Below, piece after piece: positions 3,001 to 41,792 of a DNA stretch of 45,446 bases. Origin of the DNA: a virus. The stretch covers positions 1 to 45,446 of IMG/VR virus record IMGVR_UViG_3300032783_000004. One strand, given 5' to 3'. Made by a program: the position numbers and the translations under genes. Under the pieces are notes generated by a model. The model was not told where the DNA came from. It did not search any database and saw only the letters and a list, made by a program, of their open reading frames with translations. Within the stretch, counting starts at the first letter, position 1, and each line of letters begins with the position of its first letter.

Positions 3001-5480
3001 AGAATCTGGATAAGCAAATTGAAGGGTTGACTTCCGATCAGCTGAACCGCTTGACTAAAACATATCAAGACACATATGCGTTACTTGAGACCGGTATCAA
3101 AGGCGTGAAGGAGGTTGTGAAAGAACAAACAGGTTTAGAAGGGGAAGATCTTACTAAATTCTCTCAAGAGCTTGTGACCGCATACCTGCGCACACGACCA
3201 CATATGAAAGCTATATCCGATGCCCGTAAGAATTTTCGTGAAAATCCTTTCTATATGCCCAGGGTTAGATCGAAAGGTGATTGGGCTGTGCAATTATGGA
3301 AAGATGATGAGAACCCGGAGACTGGAGCCATCACATCAAATAAGGTATGGGAAGATTTTCATCCCGGTGGGCAAGCTGCCAAGCTGATCAATCGCATCTA
3401 TAATGAAAAAGACATCCATGGTATGCCCGAGTACACCGAAAATGGCAAACTAAAAGAAGGCTATCGCATTGTTCAGGATAAGCAAAAACGTACCCCTGAG
3501 TGGGCGTATGAGCATACCAATGACGTTAACACTTTCACCATAGTAAATAATGCCATCGACAGGATACGTCTCGAAGGGGCTGCTCCTGAAGAGGTAGACA
3601 GATTGAAAGATCAGTTGGTACAAACTATTGGAGAAGAGATCCTTGCAAGGGGATGGGGCCATGGCGTTGCTCGTCTTGGTACGCTGGTGAAAGGTTATGA
3701 AACTAATGACCTCGTCAATGTGTTTAAGGGTTATACTTCTGGACTGTCTGGTAAGATGACCAAGCAGATTGCAGCCAGGGATTTTATTGAACATATGCAA
3801 TGGGTAAAAAAGAACTATAACGATCCATTATTGTATGAATCCCTTGCAAAGTATGGACGTGACAATCTCCGGAATCCGTCTGAGGCTGATCGAGCAGTTA
3901 ATTGGTATCGGCATTTGAGTTTTCTCTGGTATTTGGGTGGGTTGATCCGAGCTCCGTTGCTACATTTTTCAGCCAACTACACGTGGGCTATGCCAGAGTT
4001 GAATAGCTATATCAGAGAACAAAATAAAGAATTGAAGAAAGCTGGTTTTGGAGCTGCTGATCTTAGCGGGTTTAGCGCCTATCATAAATCCATGGGTGAC
4101 ATTGCACGGTTTGTGGGCACTAAGACATTCTTGAAAGGTGAACAAGCTCTAGTAGATATCGACTTTAGCAAACTACCAGCTGATGGACCTATTACAGGAG
4201 ATTTGCGTTCTGCCTTCCTGCATGATCTGATGATTAGTGGTATCGGAAGAGCGCAGTTTGTTGACGATATTATTCGGCCCACGATGGCAAATGCTCCAAA
4301 AGCATTTAAGACTTTTTCTGATTTTATGGTAAGGCCGTTTCAATCCATTATAACATTTAACCGTTTAGCTGCCGGTGATGCAATGTTCAGGACTGCCTAT
4401 AAAATAAATGAAAAAAGAGGTATGGCACCTGAAAAAAATCTTCAGGAATCGGCAAGGGAGGCTATCAGTTATGTTTACCGTACCCAAGGGGCTTTCCACA
4501 GGGCTAATTATTCTCCACTTGAAAGTGGCGGAGGCCTTCCGTCAGCGTTTATCCGGGGAGCTCTCACATTTAGAAGTTTTATGCACCAATACGTGCTCTG
4601 GATGCAAAGAGCTATCGGCAAAAAAGACTTTAGAGCTGTTGGTGAATCCCTTGCCTGGACAATCGGATGGGGTGGACTTATGGCTTTCCCGTTTGCCAAA
4701 GATATTCTTGATGTCATCACCAAACACATGGGGTACAACCCCACTGAAGCTATAAGAAAAAAGCTGAAAGAATATGGTGGGGACACCATGGAACAGGTTG
4801 GTATGACAGGATTGCCATCATTGATGGGATTTAAGGCTTTGTCCCATCCAGCTATCGGTATACCATTTGTCGGGGAGAACCCTTTCCAGAGTATCACTGG
4901 ATCAGGCGGCAGTCTTGTGCAAGGCGAAGGTCGGGCATGGCAAGCTATGTTACGTGGAGATTGGGCTGGAGCAGCCGGCTATGGGGCTCCTCAGTTTGTA
5001 TCTGCACCATTTACGGCTTTACGTCAATCTGAATTGGGTAAAGATGTTTTTGGTATGCAAGGGTTTGCTACTACACCTCACGGAAAACCTATTTTTGGAC
5101 CAGATGGAAGGCCCATGCAATACACCGCGGGTGAAACAGCAGCCAAAATGATCGGTCTATATCCAACAAGACCCACGGAAGAAGCTGCTCGCCATCATGA
5201 GGTTACTGAGATTGAAACACACTTTGTGCAAAAGCGTCAAGAGATTGCAGATGCTTATCGGGTAGCAAAAAATTCAGGCAAAAAAGATGCAATGTCCACG
5301 CTAATGAAAGACATCAAAGAATTCAACGAAGATCTTAAGCAAAAAGGCGCTGATACTTTAATCCCAAAGTTAAATTTATCTAGCGTACTGAAATCTAGTA
5401 CACTTACGCCTACTTCAAAGCAGAAAAAGGAGCAAAAATATTTGGAAGGAAATTTCATATCTGAGGCTAAGGGAGGCTAA
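3..5480 (+). CDS. giant polyvalent ejection-type internal virion protein (5' partial)
   Basis: The frame is open to the left edge, and the first ATG (75) has no good ribosome site, so the gene very likely starts upstream. Counting from that Met there are about 1801 residues. An SH3/KOW-like segment (about 13-50) is followed by a GNAT-like segment with 'YRGIGLAQYLY' (near 471). Next comes a metallopeptidase-like stretch around 'VLEEGFHKGI' (near 600) and the 'AAEEMLPKL' region that usually follows such domains in phage large polyvalent proteins. The C-terminal half has long helices, 'PFYMPRVR' (near 1057), and hydrophobic segments near 1300 and 1500. Size and domain mixture fit proteins ejected with podovirus DNA to form a conduit or modify the host. 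The HExxH-type site looks degenerate (first His replaced), so protease activity is doubtful. Confidence 0.75.
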   Translation, partial: FNKVTIEHLDAVTAEQILPLILKEMAAKPKGSEQPLEIGQRVKDSRGNVGIVADVKFKNGKPMFGVRWEGIRTKGKLPENITADKLEVVPEGAIVPSRKLKTQKEETSKIQSAAGYIEKTGIDLSQDYNLRELKQESSFVARLHKAGADLPDVWAQRLIDEGWVGPDFTGDELVKMIKNGSIRELYPPEKRDAMIEQSQQEALYEHLKGQAADAGIDLNTGEAIQATGDIKDEFEQEIRGLGLDAASEEANLGILNEFFDELKAQQEKVKTPKGAFENAEIEGAEFHKTFNLANPEGEFEKSVGENLSPNEEMFPKGHSDDDIRFMRKRILPAQMEEGYAKEQADIYGVRFDGMYGGYGGKKYPSFTDPVTDGSFIPQEGETVGEALERIRNSWQMAKKIRLQRESKAPRGTDVVYGEGFYDAKYKDMKIGKEPKNIIKKEDSPLGLKEITSKPDKNTDVINLFEGDKNIGGISKVTNPISGEERIGEIYLDPQYRGIGLAQYLYNKFPATPLGKAATDAAIQAKIKADTMQARWMRGPGYGANYGRQAEEFKPLVKDVVDNYMPGLDGHYEVLQTANEIPNIGLRVRVMAEADPRQVKAYYDPAEDKFYLIADHLKNPKEAIEAVLEEGFHKGIRTVFNKSEEMDNFLKRVYGFYGEDKIKAALEEHGYDFDWTKPEDQIAAAEEMLPKLQFDNPSLWQKFVDYVTNLVKDIGQKLGFEVRFDEDDIRRVMNKIDANLGKPAEARLMVGRDDVPLQLRIADYPNELKKMLLGAKDIIRNPELTPEAKGIVAELDKQVKAFDEKAYSRWRTVGSRPFWDALAHPKTWGPAWKIFGEQRPENRSRVNHELFRLQQHYMNLKDPEAFKRVNLALVAADAYREKIPGLTDAEREEMSKINRIPDSALKRGLRLYGETVQMDDAQLQAYATQREALDYMFEKNLEHIEDQIVRDFKKSAWYNMLLAAHGIVDKEAYMRLGAQDLPMISQANAKDMRIKVGQVFKNLDKQIEGLTSDQLNRLTKTYQDTYALLETGIKGVKEVVKEQTGLEGEDLTKFSQELVTAYLRTRPHMKAISDARKNFRENPFYMPRVRSKGDWAVQLWKDDENPETGAITSNKVWEDFHPGGQAAKLINRIYNEKDIHGMPEYTENGKLKEGYRIVQDKQKRTPEWAYEHTNDVNTFTIVNNAIDRIRLEGAAPEEVDRLKDQLVQTIGEEILARGWGHGVARLGTLVKGYETNDLVNVFKGYTSGLSGKMTKQIAARDFIEHMQWVKKNYNDPLLYESLAKYGRDNLRNPSEADRAVNWYRHLSFLWYLGGLIRAPLLHFSANYTWAMPELNSYIREQNKELKKAGFGAADLSGFSAYHKSMGDIARFVGTKTFLKGEQALVDIDFSKLPADGPITGDLRSAFLHDLMISGIGRAQFVDDIIRPTMANAPKAFKTFSDFMVRPFQSIITFNRLAAGDAMFRTAYKINEKRGMAPEKNLQESAREAISYVYRTQGAFHRANYSPLESGGGLPSAFIRGALTFRSFMHQYVLWMQRAIGKKDFRAVGESLAWTIGWGGLMAFPFAKDILDVITKHMGYNPTEAIRKKLKEYGGDTMEQVGMTGLPSLMGFKALSHPAIGIPFVGENPFQSITGSGGSLVQGEGRAWQAMLRGDWAGAAGYGAPQFVSAPFTALRQSELGKDVFGMQGFATTPHGKPIFGPDGRPMQYTAGETAAKMIGLYPTRPTEEAARHHEVTEIETHFVQKRQEIADAYRVAKNSGKKDAMSTLMKDIKEFNEDLKQKGADTLIPKLNLSSVLKSSTLTPTSKQKKEQKYLEGNFISEAKGG

Positions 5481-9401: not shown

Positions 9402-9430
9402 AGTGTACCACGAAACCGTGACAATGTCAA
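9402..9430 (-). promoter_or_regulatory. strong sigma-70-like promoter, leftward
   Basis: Minus strand: TTGACA (9430-9425), 17-nt spacer, TACACT (9407-9402). It drives the operon 9371 to 6758. TGACAATGTCA, an 11-bp palindrome (9419-9429), covers the -35 and is a plausible operator. Confidence 0.7.
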
Positions 9431-9444
9431 GCTCGATTTTTTTA

Positions 9445-9473
9445 TTGACAAACAAAAATATACATGATATACT
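9445..9473 (+). promoter_or_regulatory. strong sigma-70-like promoter, rightward (distal)
   Basis: TTGACA (9445-9450), 17-nt spacer, TATACT (9468-9473). It is back to back with the leftward promoter, with 14 bp between the two -35 boxes, so the two could be co-regulated. Its leader would contain the hairpin at 9502-9535. Confidence 0.75.
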
Positions 9474-9501
9474 AATACCTCATTTTTCAATCTCCTTGTT
9501 C

Positions 9502-9535
9502 GGGGCAGCGGAACTTCGTCTACTCCGTCTGCCCC
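9502..9535 (+). terminator. leader hairpin between tandem promoters (attenuator-like or tRNA-minihelix-like)
   Basis: GGGGCAGCGGA (9502-9512) pairs with TCCGTCTGCCCC (9524-9535), an 11-bp stem with one bulged T and an 11-nt loop. Five nt later comes TTTTT, so it could attenuate the distal promoter's transcript. The 7-bp base followed by A-CCA also looks like a tRNA acceptor end. Confidence 0.45.
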
Positions 9536-9615: not shown

Positions 9616-10662
9616 ATGGAACGCACGTTATTTTTAGACAAATGTCCAGTTGCGGAGCCCACCTTTACAGAACTTCAATGCTTATATTATGACCAAAACG
9701 AAAATCCTAAACTATGCGGACATTGTAAACGTCCAGAGTATTATCGTTGTCTAGCGGACCTCAGAGGTTTGATACCTCTTTCTTATTCGACTGTCCAGGA
9801 TTTTATGACATGCCATCAGTTATATTATCTGAACAGCATCCGGGGTATTCGCGTTAAGAACGCAGCCGCCTCTTCTCCTCTCAAAATGGGCAAGTTGTGG
9901 GACGTCGTGCTGGGCAAGCATTTGGGCGGAGTGGATAAAGATGGCCAGCCAACTGATATTGCCAAGGTCATCGAAGAGTATGAAATAGAAAACAAGGAAA
10001 TCGCCAAAGTCAAGGCGCTTTTCCGTGCTTACAAACAGCTGGAAATCGAAGTAGAACCCGGAGGTCTGATCCAGCCCAAAATAGATATAACCCTAACTTT
10101 TGATAAGGTGTGGGGGAACGATTGCCCGGTAGAAATGGCTGTCACGGGATTTTATGATCGAAAGTATCCTGACCACTTTGTTGAAAATAAACTTTCTGGT
10201 AGGCCTGACAATTACGAGGACATCTTTTTTATCCAATCCCAGATCGGTACGTATTTCTTGGCTGATCCTTCTTTGGAATATGTTGTTATGGAAATTGTCC
10301 GTACTCCCGACTTGAAACAAATGCGAAAGAAGGGTCAGGAAGAATCAGATGTAGCATACATGGAAAGGACTTATGACGATATCCTTACTCGGCCTAGTCA
10401 TTATTTCCAGGGGTATGTTAACGATAAACACACCTATGGAAGAAAGTTTTTCCGCAAAGAATTTGACCTAGATGAAATCCGGAATCGTTACCTTTACATC
10501 TTTAAGGAAATGTATGCCGCCCGGATGTGCGATGGCTGGTATAAAAATGATCGTGCCTGTAAGAATGTTTTGCCAGGTATTCAATGCGATAAGTTAAACA
10601 TTTGCCGGTACAATAACTGGTCTGAGACAGTATATGAAATCAGGCAGAAAGTAGGTTTCTAA
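9616..10662 (+). CDS. PD-(D/E)XK nuclease, Cas4/RecB-like with Fe-S cysteines
   Basis: 348 residues, ATG behind AAAGGA. 'LSYSTVQDFMTCHQLYYL' (about 55-73) is the N-terminal helix seen in RecB/Cas4 nucleases. The active-site pattern is 'VTGFYDRKYP', then 'FVENKLSGRP' (Asp and E-x-K), then 'FIQSQIGTYFLA' (the usual Q-x-x-x-Y helix). The C-terminal cysteines (CKNVLPGIQCDKLNICRY), with the Cys in the N-terminal helix, fit a 4Fe-4S cluster as in Cas4 and AddB. Extra Cys lie at the N-terminus (CGHC). It is the first gene of the rightward DNA-metabolism operon, a few genes before a Sak4-like ATPase, so a recombination exonuclease is likely. There are no other cas genes, so it is not a CRISPR gene. 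Confidence 0.75.
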   Translation: MERTLFLDKCPVAEPTFTELQCLYYDQNENPKLCGHCKRPEYYRCLADLRGLIPLSYSTVQDFMTCHQLYYLNSIRGIRVKNAAASSPLKMGKLWDVVLGKHLGGVDKDGQPTDIAKVIEEYEIENKEIAKVKALFRAYKQLEIEVEPGGLIQPKIDITLTFDKVWGNDCPVEMAVTGFYDRKYPDHFVENKLSGRPDNYEDIFFIQSQIGTYFLADPSLEYVVMEIVRTPDLKQMRKKGQEESDVAYMERTYDDILTRPSHYFQGYVNDKHTYGRKFFRKEFDLDEIRNRYLYIFKEMYAARMCDGWYKNDRACKNVLPGIQCDKLNICRYNNWSETVYEIRQKVGF

Positions 10663-11066
10663 TGGACGAGCCTTTGCGCATTTTTGTAGCGGGTCCTTAC
10701 TGTGCTTATAATTGTGATCCACATCTCGCCACTCAAGTTACACAGAGAAATTTAGACACAGCAATCTGGATTGCAAACCGCATCATCGACAGAGGGCACT
10801 ATGCTTTTGTTCCTCACCTCACCCATTATTTACATATTCATAATTCATGCAGAGTAGACAGAAAAGATTGGTATTGTGAATATGACAATACCTTCCTTGA
10901 TCTATGGGCTAATGCGCTTTTTCTTATTGCTCCAAGTCCCGGGTCAAACAAAGAATTAGAAAGGGCGGTACAACGAGGTTATCTTATCTTTAATCATGTG
11001 GATGATATTCCGAAGTCCCATAGCGCAAACAGATTTAGCGAAGCGTCCACGATGGTTATTAAATAA
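10662..11066 (+). CDS. nucleoside 2-deoxyribosyltransferase-like protein (DUF4406-type)
   Basis: 134 residues. Start overlaps the preceding stop (TAATG), so translation is coupled. 'LRIFVAGPY' at the N-terminus, 'RGHYAFVPHLTHYL' in the middle, 'DLWANALFLIAPSPGSNKE' and 'LERAVQRG' near the end follow the order of the nucleoside 2-deoxyribosyltransferase/DUF4406 fold, which binds nucleotide-like ligands. In phages such proteins may act in nucleotide salvage. The exact substrate is unknown. Confidence 0.7.
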   Translation: MDEPLRIFVAGPYCAYNCDPHLATQVTQRNLDTAIWIANRIIDRGHYAFVPHLTHYLHIHNSCRVDRKDWYCEYDNTFLDLWANALFLIAPSPGSNKELERAVQRGYLIFNHVDDIPKSHSANRFSEASTMVIK

Positions 11067-11076
11067 GGGGGATACA

Positions 11077-11307
11077 ATGGAATTGAAAGCCAGATTTGAC
11101 CAAATTGTAGGACTATTTAAGGGACACAATGATCTCACTGATCCGGATTATATGCCGCCAGCTCCGGCTAAACGATATTTTCACTTTACCTTTGGGAAAC
11201 CCGGAGAAGAAATTGTTGGTGGAATCTATATCAAATCAACTGGTGAAGAATTTCCAAAAACATTCCCCAAAACAATCACTATCCATGTTCCAGATCCGTG
11301 GAGTTGA
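11077..11307 (+). CDS. hypothetical protein (76 aa)
   Basis: I chose ATG 11077 because AAGGGGG lies just upstream; a longer in-frame start would run through the previous gene. Starts 'MELKARFDQIVGLFKG'. The middle contains 'FHFTFGKPGEEIVGGIYI', beta-rich and acidic. No family recognised. Part of the rightward operon. Confidence 0.6.
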   Translation: MELKARFDQIVGLFKGHNDLTDPDYMPPAPAKRYFHFTFGKPGEEIVGGIYIKSTGEEFPKTFPKTITIHVPDPWS

Positions 11308-11311
11308 TCCT

Positions 11312-11485
11312 ATGTCCAGACTATCAAAAAGTGGAAGGGAAATGGTTCTGTTGGAAGCAGCGATAGAATATTGTCTACAAAATCACATACCTATTCAAGT
11401 GTTTTTGGCAGCTGTCAGGCTTGGAGACATCCGTGTATATGATCAAGACGGTAATGAGATAGCACCATTGGATGTAAAGGCTTAG
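11312..11485 (+). CDS. small hypothetical protein (57 aa)
   Basis: Begins 'MSRLSKSGREMVLLEAA' and ends 'GNEIAPLDVKA'. ATG 11312 follows GTGGAG and lies 5 nt after the previous stop. The longer version of this frame would overlap the previous gene almost entirely. The 'IPIQVFLAAVRLGDIRVYD' part reads like a small helix-turn-helix or nucleotide-associated fold, but I cannot assign it. Confidence 0.55.
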   Translation: MSRLSKSGREMVLLEAAIEYCLQNHIPIQVFLAAVRLGDIRVYDQDGNEIAPLDVKA

Positions 11486-11563
11486 ATACTGCTGTATGGA
11501 ATTATCAAGACTTAAAAAACATTGATACTACAAATTTATTTTAATAAAGAAAGGGAGGAAGGA

Positions 11564-12358
11564 ATGCAACTATTCAAACCAAAAGAACTTATGGCATCAG
11601 CGGGTGATATGATGATGCTCTACTCCGATAGTGGGGTAGGCAAATCGGTTACTACAATTCAAACAGCGCCAGACCCTATCATTTACATTATGGCGGAAGG
11701 TAGAGACGTCACTAAGATGTTGGCCGCGGCCCAACGTCCAGACGTGAAAATTGCATTTGGCTTCTACTCTACTTTCGATGATCTAATTGAAACAGTTCTC
11801 ACAGATCACTTCTTTGAGGGAGCAAAATCCGTTGTTCTTGATTCGCTTACGCACATTATGGGCATCAATCTATCTGATGAAATCGTTGAAGAATCCTATG
11901 AAGCAATGGATAAAAACAAGATTGACAAAACCCTTACCATGCGGGTTAAAATGTCCCAGGAAGGCTACGGTACTTTAGGTGGACAGATGCTTCGTTTGAC
12001 CAATGCCTTAACCAAATTATCATCGCAGGGTATGGTGGTTATCTGCACGGCCCGAGCAGAATCAGCCCCGAAATTTAATCGTTCTCTGGCAGCAGCCCCT
12101 GCACTTAAAGGCCGAGAGTATCTTAAATACTTTGCCGGCTTTTTTGATTTCATCGGTTATTGTGAACCACGTATCATAGATGGCAAAGTCATCTACCCGC
12201 CTTATGTCTCATTCCAAGATGATGGTTCGTTCATGTCTAAATGGACAGGTATTATGCCTGAAGGTGGGGTGTTTAAGCGTATACTTAATATCCAGAAGAT
12301 ATTACAGGTTGCACACGGAAAGGGGGTGATAAAGAGTGAAGAAGAAAAAAGTCAATAA
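11564..12358 (+). CDS. RecA-like AAA ATPase, Sak4-type
   Basis: 264 residues. ATG 11564 was preferred over 11522 because GGGAGGAAGG stands right before it. Walker A is 'SDSGVGKS' (about 24-31) and the Walker B region is 'AKSVVLDSLTHIM' (about 88-100). 'GMVVICTARAES' gives a sensor-like strand. The short length, the RecA-like core and the position two to four genes before an SSB/DUF669-like protein fit the Sak4 group of phage ATPases that help single-strand annealing and recombination. Fe-S nuclease, Sak4 and the SSB-like protein together form a coherent recombination module. The exact family needs a profile search. Confidence 0.7.
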   Translation: MQLFKPKELMASAGDMMMLYSDSGVGKSVTTIQTAPDPIIYIMAEGRDVTKMLAAAQRPDVKIAFGFYSTFDDLIETVLTDHFFEGAKSVVLDSLTHIMGINLSDEIVEESYEAMDKNKIDKTLTMRVKMSQEGYGTLGGQMLRLTNALTKLSSQGMVVICTARAESAPKFNRSLAAAPALKGREYLKYFAGFFDFIGYCEPRIIDGKVIYPPYVSFQDDGSFMSKWTGIMPEGGVFKRILNIQKILQVAHGKGVIKSEEEKSQ

Positions 12359-12623
12359 ACCAAAGGCCCGGGCGGTTGAACCAGAAATACCGTTACCTTT
12401 GCCCTTCTTCGGTATTATGAAATATAGATGGGTCAGGAATTATTTGCAAGCCGATTACTTGAGGGCTACCTTCCTTGTGGCTGAAGCATTTCCTGGATAC
12501 CATATCCGGAAAGACCGGAGTGACAAGGGCACTAAGAAAAAGGATCTTCTAACCCCGGCGGAAAAAAGAATTAAAGATGCACAAACAAATTTATCCCTCA
12601 CGGAAGGAGACGGTTTATCATGA
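12336..12623 (+). CDS. basic hypothetical protein (95 aa), GTG start
   Basis: GTG start at 12336 preceded by AAGGGGGTGAT; it overlaps the ATPase by 23 nt. Starts with a run of Lys (MKKKKVNKPK) and contains 'YRWVRNYLQADYLRATF'. The basic composition suits nucleic-acid binding, but no domain is recognised. Confidence 0.6.
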   Translation: MKKKKVNKPKARAVEPEIPLPLPFFGIMKYRWVRNYLQADYLRATFLVAEAFPGYHIRKDRSDKGTKKKDLLTPAEKRIKDAQTNLSLTEGDGLS

Positions 12624-13093
12624 CAAAAAATTCATCAAAAGGGTTACTCGAAACATTAGGTAAATTTCCTCTACAAGAAGGACAAAAGGGAGTGGGTACG
12701 GTAGAGGTTATTAAATTACGCATGCCCCAGGCTAATAATGCAGATGATGTTGCCTGGGTGAACGATACCTACAAGGCTTATCTGGACACATTGAAAGAAC
12801 GTATCCAAGGCATTAAAGACACGGCATTCGACCAGGCGAAAGTGCCACCTGAATTGGCTAATGAGTTTTGGGCAGCGCATAATGAATTCTTGGGTTTTGT
12901 TACGGAGATTATTACATTCTTGGAGCCCCACATAACGTGTGGCATGTGTCCAAAATCGGTTTTGCTCATGGAAATCATGTGTATGTTAAGTGAATACCTA
13001 CGTGGCGATGGTGGATATTTTTCTGAACTTTTTCCTGAACTCATCCAGGAACTACACGGCCTCACCAAAGGCATAGATCCAAGCACACTATAA
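12620..13093 (+). CDS. hypothetical helical protein (157 aa)
   Basis: ATG overlaps the preceding stop (ATGA), with GGAAGGAG upstream. Mostly helical, with 'AWVNDTYKAYLDTLKERIQ' near 50 and 'CGMCPKSVLLMEIMCMLSE' near 110. Operon context is DNA recombination. No family recognised. Confidence 0.6.
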   Translation: MTKNSSKGLLETLGKFPLQEGQKGVGTVEVIKLRMPQANNADDVAWVNDTYKAYLDTLKERIQGIKDTAFDQAKVPPELANEFWAAHNEFLGFVTEIITFLEPHITCGMCPKSVLLMEIMCMLSEYLRGDGGYFSELFPELIQELHGLTKGIDPSTL

Positions 13094-13103
13094 TAAGGGG
13101 GTG

Positions 13104-13160
13104 ATGCACACTGGTCGAAATAAGTCGAAAGGAGGACCGTTGTGTCGAATGAAGAAGTAA
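13104..13160 (+). CDS. possible 18-aa leader peptide
   Basis: ATG behind AAGGGGGTG encodes 'MHTGRNKSKGGPLCRMKK', ending inside the next gene. It spans that gene's ribosome site, so its translation could affect the next start. It may be no more than the ribosome-site region read by chance. Confidence 0.25.
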   Translation: MHTGRNKSKGGPLCRMKK

Positions 13161-13423
13161 CCTTATTAGAAGATACTGCACTTGTGGCTTACCTATCTTA
13201 CTGTGGCCATAGAATTGTTCCCGTTCGTTCCAGGGATGTCACACCTGAAGATCCTCATCCACGCATTGCGTTCGAGGTCTACGGTGAACTGGACATTGAC
13301 GTGGAAAACTTCTATGCAAACATTCCGGTAGGTATTGCCGACTATGTGAAGCATCTGAAAGCGGTCAGAGGTTCAATGTTTAATCTTAAAAAACTAAATC
13401 CAAAAAGGGAGGTATCAACTTGA
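13142..13423 (+). CDS. DUF5659-like small protein (93 aa), GTG start
   Basis: GTG start behind AAAGGAGG. The pattern 'TALVAYLSYCGHRIVPV', a beta segment 'RIAFEVYGELDID' and a C-terminal helix resemble the small DUF5659 proteins of phages and mobile elements (family from memory, moderate). Function unknown. It overlaps the next gene by 4 nt. Confidence 0.5.
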   Translation: MSNEEVTLLEDTALVAYLSYCGHRIVPVRSRDVTPEDPHPRIAFEVYGELDIDVENFYANIPVGIADYVKHLKAVRGSMFNLKKLNPKREVST

Positions 13424-13929
13424 AGAATTACAAAGATAATACAAGTGGTGAATGGGACTTCCGCAAGCCAACTGATGGATGGCATTTAATCCAGTTTGGC
13501 GACGGTATTGATTACCTGAAAAACAAGAAAGGAGAAGTGTGGGAAGACGAGAAGACCGGCCAGAAGGCCCTGAAGCTGCCGGCGCTTGTGGCAGATGAGA
13601 AAGACGAAAGCAATGGTCTTGACGCTTCTATCATTGTTCCGGTAACTGAAGGCGGAGAGCAGAGGATGGCCAATATTCTGGCCGCATGTGGGCTTTACAA
13701 AAAGTTCGCTGAACGCTTCCCTGGTGATATCGGTATGTTCAATAAAGACGTGCTGGATGCCATTAAAGTGAAGCTGCCTGGTCAAACCATGAAGGTCAGA
13801 CTTGAAACTAATAAGAAAGGTAAGCAGAATTTTGTTGAATACACCACGGCTGATGCTAAGGTAGAAAACAAGAACCCGGCACCATTGGGCTCTTCGGCAC
13901 CACCGGCACAAGCGGGGATGGATTGGTAG
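13420..13929 (+). CDS. ssDNA-binding-like / DUF669-like protein, TTG start
   Basis: 169 residues, TTG start behind AGGGAGG. The N-terminal part has beta strands ('GWHLIQFGDGIDYL', 'QKALKLPALVA'). 'VKLPGQTMKVRLETNKKG' lies near 125, and an Ala/Pro-rich tail ends in Met-Asp-Trp, reminiscent of the acidic/aromatic tips of SSB-like proteins. DUF669-type proteins commonly sit beside Sak4-like ATPases in phages, as here. A single-strand DNA-binding or annealing helper is the best guess. Confidence 0.5.
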   Translation: MKNYKDNTSGEWDFRKPTDGWHLIQFGDGIDYLKNKKGEVWEDEKTGQKALKLPALVADEKDESNGLDASIIVPVTEGGEQRMANILAACGLYKKFAERFPGDIGMFNKDVLDAIKVKLPGQTMKVRLETNKKGKQNFVEYTTADAKVENKNPAPLGSSAPPAQAGMDW

Positions 13930-13957
13930 ACGTTAACTAATTCACCATCATATTGAA

Positions 13958-14076
13958 ATGGTGGGGAGGCGATTACATGCTAAGGGCTACCTGAAGGGCA
14001 TCAGGAAAACGCGCTGTCTTTGGGCCAAGTGCCCAACGGTGCTGCCCCCACAGGCTGCCAACCTGCTCCCCACCAT
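13958..14076 (+). ncRNA. candidate structured RNA, cloverleaf-like, about 119 nt
   Basis: In a 168-nt gap between genes, ATGGTGGGGAG (13958-13968) pairs perfectly with CTCCCCACCAT (14066-14076). Inside are three arms: CCTGA/TCAGG (13990-14005, 6-nt loop); GCGCTG plus TTGGGC pairing with GCCCAA plus CGGTGC (14011-14042, 5-nt loop, 3-nt bulge); and CAGG/CCTG (14051-14065), stacked on the closing helix. Upstream CACCAT (13943-13948) can compete for the 5' strand, which would permit a switch. It matches no class I recognise. It could be a small RNA, a riboswitch-like leader of 14098 or a processing signal. Confidence 0.55.
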
Positions 14077-14097
14077 GTTTTATGAAAGGAATGTGAT

Positions 14098-14463
14098 ATG
14101 TCTTTATTTAGCTGGTTTAAGAAGAAAAAGAAGCCTGAGCCGATCACCCTTTTGAAGCAACATGATCCTCCACCTCCAATGCGAACTTACCGTGAGGGTT
14201 ATCGGGAACACACTATCATAAATGAGCGTGAACCGGACAACACCGTTATGCATACTCTAATGGGCATGGTTCTCGCTGACAAACTTTTATCTGGTGATAA
14301 ATCAGAAGCCGTAGACGGATTCCAGCCCAGCATAGAATCATTCCATGGTGGCGAATCGGGCGGTGGAGGGGCCTCGGGTAGTTTTGATTCCAATGATGAC
14401 GCATCATCTTCAGACGATTTTTCCAGTTCTTCAGACTTCGGTGGGAGTGGAGGGGATGACTAA
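14098..14463 (+). CDS. hypothetical protein with acidic Gly/Ser/Asp-rich tail (121 aa)
   Basis: ATG behind AAAGGA, directly after the structured RNA. An N-terminal amphipathic basic segment (MSLFSWFKKKKKPEP) could touch the membrane. A short ordered middle ('NTVMHTLMGMVLADKLLSG') is followed by a low-complexity Gly, Ser and Asp tail from about residue 85. Such tails are common in small phage and prophage proteins of unknown role. It overlaps the next start (TAATG). Confidence 0.55.
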   Translation: MSLFSWFKKKKKPEPITLLKQHDPPPPMRTYREGYREHTIINEREPDNTVMHTLMGMVLADKLLSGDKSEAVDGFQPSIESFHGGESGGGGASGSFDSNDDASSSDDFSSSSDFGGSGGDD

Positions 14464-14672
14464 TGCGAGTGAAGCCAAACTTAAATGCTGTACGCAAAAC
14501 TCAGTTTGTTGTGAGCATTGAAGAAGAAGAATTTACTACCTGGGCAAGTGACGAGCATGCTGCCATGTCAAATGCAGCCTTTCGATACGCGGAAGAACAT
14601 GATGAAGGGGTGGCGCTTGTCATGTGGAAAATGAAGAACGATGAACTGTATTGTGAGGTTAATGAAGTATGA
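14463..14672 (+). CDS. small acidic hypothetical protein (69 aa)
   Basis: Coupled to the gene before (TAATG) and after (ATGA). Contains 'FVVSIEEEEFTTWASDEHAA' followed by a helix and a beta strand; a compact alpha/beta fold. No family recognised. Confidence 0.6.
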   Translation: MRVKPNLNAVRKTQFVVSIEEEEFTTWASDEHAAMSNAAFRYAEEHDEGVALVMWKMKNDELYCEVNEV

Positions 14673-15160
14673 GGGTCAAACCACGAGAATTCCAACCCTA
14701 CACCCCTAAAGCGCTGACCTTCCCCGAGGGCTTTGTTCTTTTACAAGACACCAGAGAGCAGCATCCATTATTTACCCGGCTGCCCAAAGGTCTCATCATC
14801 CAATCTGCAACACTTAAAGACGGGGACTATTCAGTCCGTGGGTTTGAGAACAAAATAGCTTTTGAGCGCAAGGGCATCACGGATCTTTTTCCATATTGCA
14901 GCACAGAGCGTGATAAAACTGTGGCCAAGATGACACGCTTAAAGACTTTCGATTTCGCAGCACTTATCATTGAAGCAAAAGAATCAGAAGTATTGCAACA
15001 TCAAGTATTCACCAAAGTACATCCTGAAACAATTAAAGGCGCCCTTATCAGCTTCCAGGTGCGGTATGGCGTCCATTTGCAATTCGGAAATAGAGAATAC
15101 CTGGGACGGTGGCTATTGGAGAGGGCATTGAAGTTTTGGAATATTCAACATGAGGTATAG
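14669..15160 (+). CDS. ERCC4-type (XPF/Mus81-like) nuclease
   Basis: 163 residues, ATGA overlap with the gene upstream. The ERCC4 active site is clear: 'LLQDTREQHPLF' (about 24-35), 'LKDGDYSVRG' (about 48-57) and 'IAFERKGITDLF' (about 62-73), giving the GD...ERK...D signature, followed by 'FAALIIEAKES'. Such nucleases cut branched or flapped DNA. The missing HhH domain and small size are usual for phage versions. It belongs to the recombination/replication operon. Confidence 0.85.
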   Translation: MRVKPREFQPYTPKALTFPEGFVLLQDTREQHPLFTRLPKGLIIQSATLKDGDYSVRGFENKIAFERKGITDLFPYCSTERDKTVAKMTRLKTFDFAALIIEAKESEVLQHQVFTKVHPETIKGALISFQVRYGVHLQFGNREYLGRWLLERALKFWNIQHEV

Positions 15161-15163
15161 ACT

Positions 15164-15805
15164 ATGAAGAAAGTAGGCCAAGAATCAGGCAAATTTGAAG
15201 AAGGACACCCTGCGGAAGACTTCGAGCCCAAAGATGCAAAAGGTAAAAAATGGTGGCATTATATCAATATTGACAAAATGAAACCTTTGCTGCCCACGTT
15301 ACGTAACCCCCAGGGCACGAAGCGGGAGGTCCGGTACCACACCTTCCTCGAAACATGGACAGCTTGCCAAGAGCTTTTTGAACGTAATCGCTTTATCTTT
15401 CGTACCCGGAACCAGGTAGACTTTCTGGCTCACTACATTGGCACCAAGATCCTCGTAGAGGCCTGGGGGCAGTCTGGTATCCCCAAATCGGGTTTATACA
15501 CCCTCCTGGAGAAACATGAGCGTAAAAGAAGCCTATACGATGACATGAAGAACGTCAAGGTGATCGTTATAGACCTTGTTGAGAAGTTCGTTGAAGGCTT
15601 TGTAACCCAGGAAGAGCTGGATAAACGGTGTGAAGAATTTGTTGATGCCTTTTCCACCTTCAAAGAAAAAGAAATGATGGCCAAAATTATCGACAGTTTA
15701 ATGGAAACCGAAGAGCTGAAGAAGATGAAAGACCGTCTACGCCAACGCAAACATCGAGAGCAAGAGAAGCGGTTGAAGGGCCTAGAAAGCACTTCAGCTA
15801 AGTAA
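15164..15805 (+). CDS. hypothetical charged helical protein (213 aa)
   Basis: Four nt after the ERCC4 nuclease. 'LAHYIGTKILVEAW' near 88 could be part of a helix-turn-helix. The C-terminal third is highly charged and likely coiled coil ('MKDRLRQRKHREQEKRLKG'). It sits just before the iteron-like region, so an origin- or operator-binding role is possible, but no family is recognised. Confidence 0.6.
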   Translation: MKKVGQESGKFEEGHPAEDFEPKDAKGKKWWHYINIDKMKPLLPTLRNPQGTKREVRYHTFLETWTACQELFERNRFIFRTRNQVDFLAHYIGTKILVEAWGQSGIPKSGLYTLLEKHERKRSLYDDMKNVKVIVIDLVEKFVEGFVTQEELDKRCEEFVDAFSTFKEKEMMAKIIDSLMETEELKKMKDRLRQRKHREQEKRLKGLESTSAK

Positions 15806-16164
15806 ATGTCACAGAAAACGTGACAAAAAAAGGGCCTGTCACACGGCTTTTTTTGAACAAAACGTCAATTTTTGAGATTTTTCAAAAAAAAGGTAACTGA
15901 GATTTGATAATGCTCAAATATAAAAAATCTCATCAAAATAAAGCTGGACAAAGCAAAATCAATATGTTATACTATTGGTACAGTTATGCAGGAATCTGTC
16001 ACGCTATAGGGGTATGGTCACGCGGGTATACGGTTACACGGGAGCTTGTCACAAGGGTGTGACAGTTTCCCTATATTTATATTATTTATAATTAACATAA
16101 TCTACGGAAAGGGCTGCAAAATGGAAAAAATTAACGGGCACACAGGCATACGGGGTAGTGTCAC
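15806..16164 (+). promoter_or_regulatory. iteron-like control region, possible replication origin
   Basis: A 359-nt gap. TGTCAC or its complement occurs at 15807, 15820, 15837, 15997, 16047, 16059 and 16159, with variants GGTCAC (16016) and GGTTAC (16032), spaced mostly 12-19 bp. Two sets form palindromes: TGTCAC-N7-GTGACA (15807-15825) and TGTCAC-N6-GTGACA (16047-16064). Between the two clusters lies an A/T-rich stretch (about 15850-15960). Repeats beside an A/T-rich block upstream of a helicase gene are typical of origins, but operators for the internal promoter explain them equally well. Confidence 0.5.
15945..15973 (+). promoter_or_regulatory. sigma-70-like promoter upstream of the helicase
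   Basis: TGGACA (15945-15950), 17-nt spacer, TATACT (15968-15973). The leader would carry most of the TGTCAC boxes, the 17-codon frame at 16121 and the helicase start. Confidence 0.65.
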
Positions 16165-25561: not shown

Positions 25562-25726
25562 TTAGTTGCCCTCTCCGCTATCGGCGCTGGCTTTGGGTTT
25601 CCGGCTTTTGAGTATGGTTTCTTTAATATACATTAAAATATCATTTGCTATTACCTCTGGATGTGATCCTGTCTCGATTCCCTGTCGGATGATTTCTCCC
25701 AGGCTTTCTTTGGTTATGCTCGACAT
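25562..25726 (-). CDS. small hypothetical protein (54 aa)
   Basis: ATG 25726 behind AAGGAGG; a TTG further upstream would add a Pro/Glu repeat and is less likely. 'MSSITKESLGEIIRQGIETG' is helical; the tail is Lys/Ser/Gly-rich. No family recognised. Confidence 0.5.
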   Translation of the reverse strand: MSSITKESLGEIIRQGIETGSHPEVIANDILMYIKETILKSRKPKASADSGEGN

Positions 25727-25830
25727 GGCTCCTCCTTTCTGTTGTTCCGGTTCGGGTTCGGGGTTTGGCAGGTCTACTGCTGTTCCCCGTTCCCGTTCCG
25801 GTGCCCTTGTTATCGCCAAACAACAAAGGG

Positions 25831-26670
25831 TCAATCATCATTGAGTTCATCTTCAAACAATTCTGGCTCATAGTCTTTAATCTGTTCTTTGCAGGTATAA
25901 CACAACCTGCCTTTTTCTTGGTGTTCTTCGTGGCATAAATGGCAATGTTTAATGTCGGTGATCGGATCAATATTACACTCGTCCAGGTGCCCATACGATG
26001 TTGACAAATCAGCGCAATCCATGCCGATTGGATACATCTCGATTGTTTCTATTTTGCTGCGGTGGTTGTAATTGTCAAAAGTATACCAGGAGATCGTCTG
26101 TAAATAACTAATATTGGAATAATGACAACCATCGTCAATCGTCCAGGAGCCGCCGTACAACAATACTTGACCGGACTTGTGCATGATTGCCCATTTGCTA
26201 TTGGTGGCAAGTTCTATCAAGGCTTGGATTGCTGGTTGTTTTAAGCGCTTGAAAGAGAGGTCAGCCATAACCTCTTTAATAAATATCATTGTATCTGAGA
26301 GGTGTTTATGCCTGGGCAGATCAAGAATAATCCCGTTATGTGCTACTCCTGTGTCCCCAGCTATGTTCAAAGCAATCAACTTTTGTGGGTTTTTGCATAA
26401 TATAAAAGGGTGAGTGTTGCCAGCGGCCTTTTCCCCGTGGGTTGCTAATCTAAAGTGCAGGATCATAGCCGTGTCTTTAATATTGATCCGCTTTTCAAGG
26501 CTCCATAAAGCGGCCATAAGTTCGGGCAGTTTCATAAAACCTTTTTCGATCATAACATAGTTGCCATCTGCATACATAAAACCTGCCCCATCTCCATTGT
26601 TAGCAAAGCAAGTTTTTAATCGTCCGTATGGCATGTCTACGCCTTGTGGCTTATGGATTATTATGCACAT
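25831..26670 (-). CDS. class-II glutamine amidotransferase-like Ntn hydrolase
   Basis: 279 residues. 'MCIIIHKPQG' places Cys2 as the N-terminal nucleophile after Met removal. 'ILHFRLATHGEKAAGNTHPF' and 'DTGVAHNGIILDLP' are the R-x-A-T-H-G...H-P-F...HNG motifs of class-II glutaminase (GATase) domains, which release ammonia from glutamine. A C-terminal zinc ribbon (CHLCHEE...CYTCKEQ) is added. The start overlaps the end of the amidoligase by 10 nt with AGGGAGG inside that gene, so the two are translated together. Pairing of amidoligase and GATase-type proteins is known from comparative genomics. The product of this pair is unknown. Confidence 0.8.
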   Translation of the reverse strand: MCIIIHKPQGVDMPYGRLKTCFANNGDGAGFMYADGNYVMIEKGFMKLPELMAALWSLEKRINIKDTAMILHFRLATHGEKAAGNTHPFILCKNPQKLIALNIAGDTGVAHNGIILDLPRHKHLSDTMIFIKEVMADLSFKRLKQPAIQALIELATNSKWAIMHKSGQVLLYGGSWTIDDGCHYSNISYLQTISWYTFDNYNHRSKIETIEMYPIGMDCADLSTSYGHLDECNIDPITDIKHCHLCHEEHQEKGRLCYTCKEQIKDYEPELFEDELNDD

Positions 26671-28661: not shown

Positions 28662-28698
28662 GTGTCCCATTTTCGGACACTGTCCCATTTTAGGACAC
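28662..28698. promoter_or_regulatory. tandem operator-like palindromes GTGTCC-N7-GGACAC
   Basis: GTGTCC-CATTTTC-GGACAC (28662-28680) and CTGTCC-CATTTTA-GGACAC (28680-28698), 18 bp apart. The same 19-bp palindrome recurs at 39019-39037. Confidence 0.6.
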
Positions 28699-29048: not shown

Positions 29049-29630
29049 ATGAAAACGACCGACACTAAAGATAGATCCATCACACCAGCGCCGCCGCCCG
29101 GGGGCAAAAAAACACGTAAGCGTTATGCCACGAAAGAGGAGGCCCGAGAAGCTAAGCGTGTGCGGGATGCGGCAGCCGACAAACGACGTAGGGATCGCCA
29201 GCGGCAAGAACAGGAAGAGGGTGTACCGGTTTTGACTACCGAGCAAATGCTGAATTCTATGCGGCAGGTTTATCAGAAGATGGGGGGCGTGAAAAACCTA
29301 CTTCATCATATGAAAACACATCCCAGGGACTATGTGGCGATGGTCCAGAACTTAATGAAGATTGAAGCCTCGTTGATGGAAGCTAAAGCAAAGAAATCCG
29401 GGGGGGAAGAACCCCAAGGTGTTTTTGTAGTGATGAAGGGCCTGGCGGAGGGTACCATATGTCCACATTGCGGCAAAGATGCAAGTGCACCGGTTACCAC
29501 CACGTCGATACCTGGTGAAGAAGAGGATGAAGAAAAGAGTGAGGTAAAGGAGGTGTTTGAAATTGAGGGCATGAATAATATTCTAGATCCTGGAGCTGAA
29601 TCAGCAATTCAGGCAGGTGGAGAGTGGTGA
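29049..29630 (+). CDS. probable terminase small subunit
   Basis: 193 residues, behind GAGGG and 25 nt after the promoter -10. A basic, Arg/Lys-rich N-terminal part (about 20-57, helical) suits DNA recognition. 'GGVKNLLHHMKTHPRDYVAM' and 'MKIEASLMEAKAKKSG' follow; then a C-x2-C (ICPHCGKD) and an acidic tail. No sequence motif proves it. Position as first late gene, two small genes before the large terminase, is the main argument. Confidence 0.5.
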   Translation: MKTTDTKDRSITPAPPPGGKKTRKRYATKEEAREAKRVRDAAADKRRRDRQRQEQEEGVPVLTTEQMLNSMRQVYQKMGGVKNLLHHMKTHPRDYVAMVQNLMKIEASLMEAKAKKSGGEEPQGVFVVMKGLAEGTICPHCGKDASAPVTTTSIPGEEEDEEKSEVKEVFEIEGMNNILDPGAESAIQAGGEW

Positions 29631-30025
29631 TCGAATGGTGTTTCTTGTCTATTGCTGGGGTGGTAATAATAACTGGTATATTGATGATGACAGTTTTGTC
29701 TTTTGAAGCGTTGAACCAAAAGCGGTACCGTAGAAAAAGTGGGGGAAGTGGGGGCGGAAGGCGTCATCCCGGAGGAACACAAAAACCATTAGTTAATGAG
29801 GGCAATGCGATGTCAGAAACGATTATAGGGGAACAGAGAGGTTGGCAACCTATTGCGGCGCTCGCACTAGGGGGCGGAGGAGGAGGCGACATAGGTCAGA
29901 CAGGAACATCGGGTTTTGCATCGGGTTTTAGTGGAACATGTGTTTTGGGTGGAACATGTGGAACATCACCAACACATGTGGCAAAAACAAGTACGTTTAT
30001 CTGTGTCAGTGGACGGTGCATGTAA
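29624..30025 (+). CDS. membrane-anchored Gly-rich protein with GTS-type repeats (133 aa), GTG start
   Basis: GTG 29624 overlaps the preceding stop, with AGGTGG upstream. A transmembrane helix at about 5-28 ('SIAGVVIITGILMMTVL') is followed by basic residues. The second half is Gly-rich, with 'GQTGTSGFASGFSGTC' and 'LGGTCGTSPTHV', similar in style to the Gly-Thr-Ser repeats of the virion genes further right. Function unknown. Confidence 0.5.
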   Translation: MVIEWCFLSIAGVVIITGILMMTVLSFEALNQKRYRRKSGGSGGGRRHPGGTQKPLVNEGNAMSETIIGEQRGWQPIAALALGGGGGGDIGQTGTSGFASGFSGTCVLGGTCGTSPTHVAKTSTFICVSGRCM

Positions 30026-38859: not shown

Positions 38860-39058
38860 TCCATACACCCCCTAAAGCAACCCCTGATTGTGATATTTCG
38901 CAGTTGGGGGTTGTGACATCTCACAAACTGGATACTTTTTATCCACCTTCCTTGCGATATTTCACAATTTTCTTGACTTTTTCACAAAAACGTGCTATAT
39001 GACCGCCATAAAATAGTCGTGTCCTATTTCGGGACACACTTGTTCTTTGGAGGTTTTT
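38860..39058 (+). promoter_or_regulatory. control region before the capsid genes, with promoter and operators
   Basis: Contains CAACCCC/GGGGTTG (38878-38913, possible weak hairpin), GTGACA (38913-38918), the palindrome CTGGATACTTTTTATCCA (38928-38945), the promoter TTGACT (38973-38978), 17 nt, TATATG (38996-39001), and GTGTCC-N7-GGACAC (39019-39037) just past the expected start site. 'GATATTTC' also occurs twice (38892, 38956). A regulated second late promoter for scaffold and capsid is likely. Confidence 0.65.
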
Positions 39059-40069
39059 ATGGCGAATCCTACTGACAGAGGGGCGGCAGGTGAAGACAAT
39101 AGTTCTTTGGAAAGTATCGAAATCTTTAGTAATGCGTTTGATGAAGCTACGGGAGAGGGCACATCTGGGACAGACGGAACATCCGGGGTAGCGACCGGAG
39201 ATGTTTCTGATTTCAAAGGTGAGCTTCCCGAGAATTCAGACACTACGCAGTCCACTATGGGGACCCAGGCAGTATCCGGCACGGCTGGAACTTCTGGGAC
39301 GGTGTCAGCTGACGATGAGAAGGCTGAACAGAAGTACCGAACACTTCAGGGTATCCTCAAAGCGGAAAAAGATAAGTGGGAGCAAGAAAAGGCTGTACGC
39401 GATGCTGAAATAGAAAGGCTAAGGGCAGCAGGAACAGCTGGCAGGGCAACTCAAACTCAGACCTTTGACGATCCTTATATGAATTTGTCGGAAGAGGACA
39501 AGAAGGCCTTAAAAGAATACGATACGGAATATGACACGGTATCCAAGTTTGAGGCAATCAAGCGCAAAGCTGAATTAGCTGCTTTAGAAGGTAAACTGAC
39601 AACCAGCATCCGTAAAGAGTTTCAGGAGGCTTTTAATTTCCTTATTCAGTCAATGGCCCCTGTTCTTTCCACCACAGAGCAAATTTCTGATGAACGACAT
39701 TTTGGCGCCATCAAAAACAAGCATGCAGACTTTGAAAAATATCGTGACGATGGATCTATTGAAACCTGGATCAACAGCAAGCCGAAGTACCTTCGGGACG
39801 CATACGTTAGTGTTTATAACGATGGTTCTGCCCAGGACATCATAGATTTGCTCGACACGTTCAAAAAAGAAAATAACATCGGCCCCCCGGTTGTGACTGA
39901 CGCGGCTGGAACGGCTGGTACTTCTGCTGACCTCAAGCATGACAAGGAGAAAAAGAAAGAAGCCCTAGCTGGCGTACATTCTAAGAGAACTCCTACGAAT
40001 TATAGCCAGCTTGACAAAGACGATTATGCTGGGGCATTCGATGAGGCAGCGAAGAAATTATCAACTTAA
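39059..40069 (+). CDS. scaffolding-like protein with Gly-Thr-Ser repeats
   Basis: 336 residues from ATG 39059 (TGGAGG; an upstream TTG is less likely). Acidic N-terminus with repeats at about 33-43 (GEGTSGTDGTSG), 73-82 (SGTAGTSGT) and near 281-289 (AGTAGTS). A charged coiled-coil middle ('LKAEKDKWEQEKAVRDAEI') and helical C-terminal part are typical of phage scaffolds encoded just before the capsid. Repeats use different synonymous codons each time, which points to selection at the protein level. Confidence 0.65.
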   Translation: MANPTDRGAAGEDNSSLESIEIFSNAFDEATGEGTSGTDGTSGVATGDVSDFKGELPENSDTTQSTMGTQAVSGTAGTSGTVSADDEKAEQKYRTLQGILKAEKDKWEQEKAVRDAEIERLRAAGTAGRATQTQTFDDPYMNLSEEDKKALKEYDTEYDTVSKFEAIKRKAELAALEGKLTTSIRKEFQEAFNFLIQSMAPVLSTTEQISDERHFGAIKNKHADFEKYRDDGSIETWINSKPKYLRDAYVSVYNDGSAQDIIDLLDTFKKENNIGPPVVTDAAGTAGTSADLKHDKEKKKEALAGVHSKRTPTNYSQLDKDDYAGAFDEAAKKLST

Positions 40070-40086
40070 TTTAGGAGGTATTCCCC

Positions 40087-41091
40087 ATGCCAATGACCAC
40101 ATACGGTGATATTCAACCAAGAACTGCTGCATTTGTAGCAGCTGACCTTTTGAAGCGTGCCATGCCTTATCTCTGTCTGGAGAAATTTGGACAGTCACAT
40201 CCGCTTCCGGAACATAAAACAACGTCTATGATTTTTAGACGTTATAATGCTCTTGCCCTGGCAACCACAGCGCTGACCGAAGGCGTTACCCCTGCTGGCA
40301 AGAAACTAACCAAAACAGACGTACCCGTTACGCTTGCTCAGTATGGCGATTTTGTGGAGATTACTGACGTTGTTCAGGATACCCACGAAGACCCGGTTCT
40401 TCAGGAAGCCTCTGCGGTTATTTCTGAACAGGCAGCCAAGACCGTTGAAACCATCCGGTACAATGTTCTCAAAGCCTGTTCCAATGTCTTTTACGCAAAT
40501 TCGGTTGCGGCCAGAACTTCTATCGCTACCGCTCTTGTAAGAGCTGATCAGCGAAAGATAGTTCGAGCCTTGGAGCGCCAGGATGCCAACAGGTTGGTGT
40601 CCATTGTTCGTTCAACCCCCAATTTCAATACTGAAAATATTCTACCTGCTTTCGTTGGTGTTACTCATGTCGATATGACTACGGACATCCGTTCGATGAC
40701 AGGGTTTATCAATGTGGCAGATTATGGGAAGGTTTCTCCTTTCGAGACAGAAATCGGTTCCTGCGAAGATGTTCGGTACTTGAAATCCACAATATTCACT
40801 CCTTACGGTGGAGCTGGCCTTGCTGGCACAACCACTTATCTGTACTCTTTGAGTTCAGGTGGAACGAATAGCTACGATGTCTACCCGGTCATGTTCTTTG
40901 GCAAAGACGCTTATGGTCTTGTCGCCCTTAAAGGTCGATACGCCATTACCCCGATGGTTCTCAATCCTGGTATTCCCAGGGGCGGTGATCCGTTAGGACA
41001 GCGTGGTACGGTGTCATGGAAAACCATGCAGACAGCTATCATTCTGAACGATGCGTGGATGGCAATTGGCGAATTTGCTTGTACAGCTTAA
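40087..41091 (+). CDS. major capsid protein, N4-gp56 type
   Basis: 334 residues, behind AGGAGG. 'LTEGVTPAGKKLTKTDVPVT' then 'QYGDFVEITDVVQDTHEDPV' then 'EQAAKTVETIRYNVLKA' is the hallmark of the N4 gp56 capsid family (HK97 fold). 'KDAYGLVALKG' and 'DPLGQRGTVSWKT' near the end also fit. It has only a short 'GLAGTTTY' instead of the repeats of its neighbours. Confidence 0.9.
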   Translation: MPMTTYGDIQPRTAAFVAADLLKRAMPYLCLEKFGQSHPLPEHKTTSMIFRRYNALALATTALTEGVTPAGKKLTKTDVPVTLAQYGDFVEITDVVQDTHEDPVLQEASAVISEQAAKTVETIRYNVLKACSNVFYANSVAARTSIATALVRADQRKIVRALERQDANRLVSIVRSTPNFNTENILPAFVGVTHVDMTTDIRSMTGFINVADYGKVSPFETEIGSCEDVRYLKSTIFTPYGGAGLAGTTTYLYSLSSGGTNSYDVYPVMFFGKDAYGLVALKGRYAITPMVLNPGIPRGGDPLGQRGTVSWKTMQTAIILNDAWMAIGEFACTA

Positions 41092-41120
41092 CATTGACCA
41101 CATTAAGGAGGTAACAAACC

Positions 41121-41771
41121 ATGACGGATACTTTACTGTATAGCAACACAAAGAAATTTGACGATCCGGCAGTAACTCAGGATGCTGCTGTGAAACGGGT
41201 CGATAAAGGTTTTGAGATGGAGGCAATGCGAAGAGCACTTGCCAGCATCACAAACAGGGTCATTCCTACCTCAGCGGGTGGGACGACAGGCACCGGGTAT
41301 GAGCTCACCGCAGGTTTGGCAGCTGGTTCCGCAGTTGGTTCCATTAAAGCGGCCAACACCTTCAAATATACTATTGATGGCGTGATGTATCAGTACACCG
41401 GAAATACCGACATTGCCATCGCAGGTTCTCTCGGAAACGGTACACAGGGTACAGCCACCACCTGTTATTACCTTGTCAGCGTTGGCACCAATGGCACCAG
41501 CGGGACAGCACTTGCCGGCAATGGCGGTCTGTACGTAACAAAGGGCAATGAAGGGACTTCGGGGACCGGCGTGTTTGCTTATGCGCTCAATTCCACCCCG
41601 TATCTACCGGATTGTCCTGATGGGCAGTGTCCGATAGGGTATTTTTCGGTGATCACAAAAACCACCACACCTTTTGTTCCCGGTACTTCAACGATGGGAG
41701 ATTCGACAAACTTTACCATCGCCTATGGCGATTTGATAGGGATGCCGATTTTCAAGTACGCTGAAGACTAA
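41121..41771 (+). CDS. capsid-associated protein with Gly-Thr-Ser repeats (possible decoration protein)
   Basis: 216 residues, behind AGGAGG, directly after the capsid gene. A helical N-terminus ('EMEAMRRALASITNRVIP') leads into a beta-rich body with 'GGTTGTGYEL', 'VGTNGTSGTALAGNGG' (about 121-136) and 'GNEGTSGTGVFAY' (about 142-154). Position after the major capsid protein and the beta-rich, Gly/Thr-rich composition suggest a head-surface or head-fibre protein. Confidence 0.5.
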   Translation: MTDTLLYSNTKKFDDPAVTQDAAVKRVDKGFEMEAMRRALASITNRVIPTSAGGTTGTGYELTAGLAAGSAVGSIKAANTFKYTIDGVMYQYTGNTDIAIAGSLGNGTQGTATTCYYLVSVGTNGTSGTALAGNGGLYVTKGNEGTSGTGVFAYALNSTPYLPDCPDGQCPIGYFSVITKTTTPFVPGTSTMGDSTNFTIAYGDLIGMPIFKYAED

Positions 41772-41792
41772 TAGTTAAATAGTGCAAAATCA

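Follow-up and report, generated by a model that had tools for sequence, protein, structure and literature searches.

A perfect 11-bp helix behind an SSB-like gene of an environmental virus, and structured gaps at the same position in distant relatives

SSB is required in amounts stoichiometric with ssDNA. Among the structures that act between genes of one operon, the malE–malF REP is an intercistronic stabilizing stem-loop. Stem-loops of selective RNA processing and stabilization (SRPS) are known in the cip-cel operon (PMC4423207). Leaky internal intrinsic terminators located behind a bacterial gene that is needed in excess set subunit ratios, and a stem-loop deprived of its U tract failed to terminate (PMC9045158). 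In phage T4, the mRNA of the SSB gene, gene 32, is the most stable of all (PMC3014915). Additionally, sak4 genes are known to adjoin DUF669-type SSB genes (PMC5928155).

Here we analyse a virus record from an environmental source, 45,446 bases long (the window, meaning the whole stretch of DNA) in which a long-range helix lies in the gap behind an SSB-like gene. As in SRPS, a stable stem-loop lies between two cistrons, where a gene that is probably needed in excess ends; the window element differs in that its helix closes about 97 nt over a long range and in having no sequence conservation. With leaky internal terminators it shares the place behind a gene needed in excess, and the hairpins of some relatives carry weak or strong U tracts, but the window element has a 97-nt loop and GTTTTATG as its U tract. 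The likeness to T4 gene 32 is that of a phage SSB message under special post-transcriptional control, although in T4 the control lies in a 5′ pseudoknot to which gp32 binds, together with RNase E sites, whereas the window structure lies 3′ of the gene (PMC3014915). Riboswitches and the phage RNA motifs of Rfam are likewise structured intergenic RNAs, but the window element has no Rfam match, no conserved core and no clear expression platform.

The early operon and its SSB-like gene

No near relative of this virus was found in the collections searched. The genes of its early operon and the features of the gap are listed in Table 1. The first-pass annotation had described this gap as the only sizeable one in an otherwise overlapping operon, which is true of the stretch from 9616 to 15805; beyond it, a larger gap precedes the helicase gene. 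The pre-helicase gap contains arrays of short sites, whose motif varies between phages: TGTCAC/GTGACA in the window (7 sites in 359 nt), TGTAACG/CGTTACA in the relative L094 (7261–7615, minus strand; 10 CGTTAC), GGGACA and TACATTG-type sites in L114 and TGTCCG/CGGACA in L131. These arrays are possibly an origin or a regulator array with a fast-changing recognition motif. At 9402–9535, strong sigma-70-like promoters point away from each other (plus strand, TTGACA-17-TATACT with TG; minus strand, TTGACA-17-TACACT), and a leader hairpin, GGGGCAG..CTGCCCC, follows; this is likely the early control region. A 65-aa ORF at 13958–14155 was rejected as a gene, as it has no Shine–Dalgarno site in view and no counterpart among the relatives.

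Table 1. Features of the early operon and of the gap behind the SSB-like gene in the window
Feature	Position	Strand	Remarks
Early operon	start near 9,480	+	rightward
RecB-like nuclease gene (recB)	9616		early operon
Sak4-type ATPase gene (sak4)	11522		early operon; followed by small genes before the SSB-like gene
SSB-like gene	13420–13929	+	directly 5′ of the gap
Gap after the SSB-like gene	13930–14097		168 nt
CACCAT	13943–13948	+	competitor of the helix 5′ strand
TCATA	13948–13952	+	partner TATGA at 14081–14085; their pairing can lengthen the closing helix in the direction of the following ribosome-binding site
Closing helix, 5′ strand	13958–13968	+	ATGGTGGGGAG; perfect 11 bp
Interior	13969–14065	+	97 nt; predicted rod, arms within chance
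12-bp arm	14011–14042	+	7+5 pairs, 3-nt bulge, G-U pairs; around GGGC CAAGT GCCC
Closing helix, 3′ strand	14066–14076	+	CTCCCCACCAT; then GTTTTATG, a weak U tract
AAAGGA	14085–14090	+	Shine–Dalgarno-like site of the 121-aa gene, from sequence
3′-flanking gene	14098–14463	+	121 aa; no family match
ERCC4 nuclease gene (ercc4)	14669		early operon
213-aa gene (p15164)	15164		early operon
XPD/DinG-like helicase gene	16165		after a 359-nt gap (15806–16164)

The AlphaFold model of the product of 13420–13929 is an OB fold (pLDDT 77), and its best match among solved structures is PrgE, the SSB of pCF10 (Z 9.5, 113 residues). Foldseek also returned toxin B subunits and chains like them, which we discounted as weak OB-fold resemblances. 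Searched by sequence against Pfam, the protein gave no match; its family also matches DUF669 viral proteins. The acidic tail of the window protein ends in DW, and an acidic tail, usually with W or another aromatic residue last, is found in the family. The gene lies close to sak4, within the sak4 module. From fold and context only, namely the OB fold, the acidic C-terminal tail and the sak4 neighbour, we regard the product as SSB-like and as a putative phage SSB of the DUF669 type. None of the cultured phages in the collection had a recognizable homologue of the gene.

The closing helix and the fold of the gap

We found that ATGGTGGGGAG and CTCCCCACCAT are fully paired, which confirms the perfect 11-bp closing helix reported earlier. 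The helix starts 29 nt 3′ of the ssb stop, and the next gene is co-directional. Its pairs have a probability of 0.85–1.0, with 0.63 for the outermost pair when the flanks were left out. No fold of lower energy than the 130-nt fold of the gap (−56 kcal/mol) was found in the window. Owing to the high GC content of the stretch, however, this corresponds to a z-score of only about −3, and several other sites were more extreme in the window-wide scan, which was coarse.

The most extreme folding z-score of the window (−6.5) belongs to a hairpin around TACCAGTAGGTCGGGACATTCTCGACTTACTGGTA between two late genes (41776–41850). At 25676–25870 (z about −5), TTCCGGTTCGGGTTCGGGG lies opposite GTTCCCCGTTCCCGTTCCGG, and only a minus-strand ORF overlaps. 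Tandem TGTCCCATTTTCGGACAC/TGTCCCATTTTAGGACAC palindromes are present at 28663–28698; a similar sequence 10 kb distant, at 39020–39037, is the third copy. A dispersed coding repeat was also observed: Gly-Thr-x repeats (GTSGT, GTAGTSGT and similar) occur in at least five unrelated late-region proteins (39047–44470, also 29624–30025), and short ORFs near 43080–43370 contain stretches rich in Gly, Ser and Thr.

Shuffled windows led us to expect 2.4 perfect 11-bp inverted repeats within 150 nt, and one was seen, so the helix by itself proves nothing; for a helix this long inside the gap (about 160 nt), p was about 0.01. The 97-nt interior (MFE −36.0) folded no better than its shuffles (p = 0.12), and the interiors of the window and of seven relatives, compared with shuffles, gave a combined p of 0.12. 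The genome-wide count, the interior within chance and the lack of sequence conservation would all fit a gap in which nothing is functional in this phage, that is, a GC-rich spacer in which an inverted repeat arose by chance, some relatives having ordinary terminators; we weigh this reading below against the data from the relatives.

A cloverleaf of about 120 nt had been proposed for this region. In our calculations it is a minor state, making up about 5% of the ensemble, and the MFE structure is an elongated rod (−55.3 versus about −53.4 for the cloverleaf). Of the three interior arms described, the 12-bp arm was recovered, with pair probabilities of 0.98–1.0 in its inner hairpin, but the others, at 13990–14005 and 14051–14065, pair with a probability of about 0.05. 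Consistent with this, ARAGORN and Rfam found no tRNA or cloverleaf RNA in the window.

The annotation had further proposed that CACCAT pairs with the same 5′ strand, giving two exclusive states as in riboswitches. CACCAT can indeed pair with ATGGTG (13958–13963) at −4.6 kcal/mol, but this pairing has zero equilibrium probability when the 3′ strand is present. The hairpin is at most a co-transcriptional intermediate, existing only before the 3′ strand is made. We therefore do not retain the two-state model: the alternative hairpin is far weaker than the full closing helix, the cloverleaf is rare and there is no shared aptamer sequence.

A riboswitch or translational switch could, on paper, draw on such alternative pairings, either of CACCAT against the closing helix or of an upstream strand around the next ribosome-binding site. 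The two folds are far from balanced, however, and in no other fold of the gap did we find a clear terminator or a platform at the ribosome site. Nor did a common aptamer core emerge, as the window element showed no similarity to the relatives beyond shuffles and had no match in Rfam. Extension of the closing helix by TCATA and TATGA brings the full-gap fold to −62.9 kcal/mol, but these weak pairs around the next start are absent from the relatives, and the extension is uncertain. A switch of either kind is extremely improbable.

The same position in distant relatives

Single-protein scans of a viral contig collection found no close relatives, and a search for the exact closing-helix pattern gave no match. 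A helicase alignment scan returned 600 pattern stretches and zero confirmed relatives, and the ERCC4 pattern revealed no prophage with the module in bacterial genomes. Terminase relatives were rejected as a comparison set, their early module being missing. A helicase motif led to a 56-kb virus record (G032, L094) that has recB, sak4, p13142, p13420, ercc4, p15164 and the helicase in common with the window, at 25–57% identity, and an ERCC4 motif led to about 20 further records with the same module. The recB–sak4–SSB–ERCC4–helicase module is common to about 22 distant phages, a count that rests on one conserved peptide pattern, with L143 and L101 assigned by synteny and weak profile matches.

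The sequence of the window element was unrelated to that of every relative, with nothing beyond shuffles; a candidate homology to L196 ('GAGGCGATTA') fell within the shuffle range and was dismissed. The elements of the relatives were also mutually unrelated, except for the near-duplicate pair L108/L195, pairs that overlap within the next gene and a small number of borderline scores. Unrelated sequence in homologous gaps had been named in advance as an outcome that would count against the element. The gaps are unrelated in their letters, but helices are still formed in them.

Across the module loci, the 150 nt after the SSB stop had a mean z of −2.1, compared with −0.1 after recB, +0.3 after sak4 and −0.2 after ercc4 (Mann–Whitney p = 3e-5 against the other module genes). 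Gaps with z below −2 made up 60% of those behind the SSB gene and 15% of 68 other co-directional gaps in the same loci (p = 3e-4), the controls being taken from crude gene calling by longest non-overlapping ORFs. The longest perfect helix behind the SSB gene was 8.7 bp, versus 6.7 bp in shuffles. Perfect helices of at least 9 bp were present at this position in 8 of 22 loci and were never seen after recB or sak4. For the longest helices the combined p was 2.7e-6, or 1.7e-5 leaving out the window. This enrichment without the window, together with the low p for a helix of this length in the gap, argues against a spacer with a chance repeat, which we consider unlikely.

The structures themselves were diverse. 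Six of the eight longest helices enclose loops of 38–97 nt, which ordinary terminators do not have, and several have no U tract. A closing helix follows the SSB gene in L144 (16 bp), L143 (12 bp) and L113 (10 bp), and in L177 a 15-bp helix is accompanied by a U7 run and an outer helix. The stem of L094 comprises 15 pairs with interruptions, L170 has three closed hairpins in a row, and long simple hairpins are found in L169 and L153. Classic U-tailed terminators, which are canonical intrinsic terminators, follow the gene in L131 and L137; U-tailed hairpins follow it in L138 and L169, and long stems are succeeded by U runs in L177 and L196. About one-third of the relatives had no significant structure (for example L133, L149, L110, L168, L197, L198 and, by folding energy, L196), so the element is not obligatory. 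Of the earlier description, a structured element in the gap is supported, mainly since distant relatives are strongly structured at the same position; the cloverleaf and the switch are not.

Directly after the SSB-like gene, tRNA T-arm-like GGGGTTCGATTCCCC hairpins were seen in L108 (about 4540–4615), L195 and L101 (3243–3285, minus strand). The L108 element has a 7–8 bp acceptor-like helix, and ARAGORN calls no tRNA there. These hairpins could be degraded tRNAs or attachment-site remnants.

Comparison of the two strands gave a mean z of −1.65 for the minus and −1.83 for the plus strand (p = 0.38). As both strands fold alike, this test gives no sign of selection at the RNA rather than the DNA level. 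Action at the DNA level is possible given Watson–Crick arms, unconstrained interiors and equal folding of both strands: the inverted repeat could be a cruciform or hairpin site on which enzymes of the module, for instance its ERCC4 nuclease, act in replication or recombination, with only the symmetry of the repeat kept. The arms are perfect without wobble pairs, and the neighbouring genes handle DNA structures. By contrast, message-strand U tracts in L131, L137, L138, L169 and L177 point to RNA, and a location at the end of a gene is typical of terminators; we consider a DNA site very unlikely.

The slot might also hold a small RNA, if the closed domain were cut from the early message to give a separate product differing between phages. 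Domains of 60–120 nt with perfect closing helices resemble processing stems, the consecutive closed hairpins of L170 would suit such a slot, and so would the T-arm/tRNA-like element of L108 and L195 and the T-arm-like hairpin of L101. This proposal is distinctly unlikely, however, as ARAGORN and Rfam gave no match, the interiors have no conserved motif or significant fold and several relatives have just a simple terminator.

A possible boundary behind the SSB gene

No sigma-70-like promoter (at least 10 of 12 matches, 16–18 nt spacing; only this promoter type was sought) was found within 300 nt after ssb in any locus, so expression of the downstream genes probably relies on read-through. On visual inspection, L149 (7830–7950, minus strand) and L197 (after 2043) have AT-rich stretches with TTGACA behind the SSB gap, with no promoter at 10/12. 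An internal boundary behind the SSB gene is suggested by its position, by U-tailed hairpins in several relatives and by the missing promoter.

In the window, the helix stands behind an SSB-like gene of a sak4 module; its distant relatives have an excess of structure there, and some have U-tailed terminators. Our preferred reading, to which we assign an even chance, is that an intercistronic structure, read as RNA, sets SSB above the downstream genes by leaky termination and/or 3′-end protection. The relatives that have no significant structure, the long loops and missing U tracts among the longest helices and the equal folding of the two strands speak against it. The closing helix would be a stable end for the upstream recB–sak4–ssb message, and SSB would be made in larger amounts than the downstream gene products. 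By one route, the helix would halt 3′-to-5′ decay, as do intercistronic stem-loops in SRPS or malE-REP operons. By the other, it would be a leaky transcription terminator or attenuator, and the genes downstream would be expressed by read-through at a lower level. Everything beyond the structure, from transcription of the gap to altered transcript ratios and the mechanism at work in the window phage, is inferred.

The window element is not a canonical intrinsic terminator, a riboswitch, a tRNA or a member of a known Rfam family. Its loop of 97 nt and tail of GTTTTATG depart from the canonical terminator, and it is absent from the terminator-like sites listed. The weak U tract and long loop make protection or very leaky termination likelier here than efficient termination. 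As expected of a stabilizing or leaky-terminator element, a stable helix lies directly after a gene inside a co-directional operon. With moderate confidence, we place the element as a variant of intercistronic stem-loops that works like a stabilizer or attenuator.

A broader and more doubtful proposal is that phages with sak4, SSB and ERCC4 genes repeatedly re-invent, behind the SSB gene, a domain of about 60–120 nt closed by a long perfect helix, a class that is locked in position and free in sequence and that acts by closure alone. Its members may serve as a processing stem, a decay barrier or a DNA inverted repeat. Elements of this kind are invisible to homology searches and covariation tests. 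Should our preferred reading be right, regulatory structure would be kept by position and not by sequence and would be missed by Rfam-type and covariation searches, and there would be an easy route to learning how the level of SSB is adjusted in phages against that of the other replication proteins.
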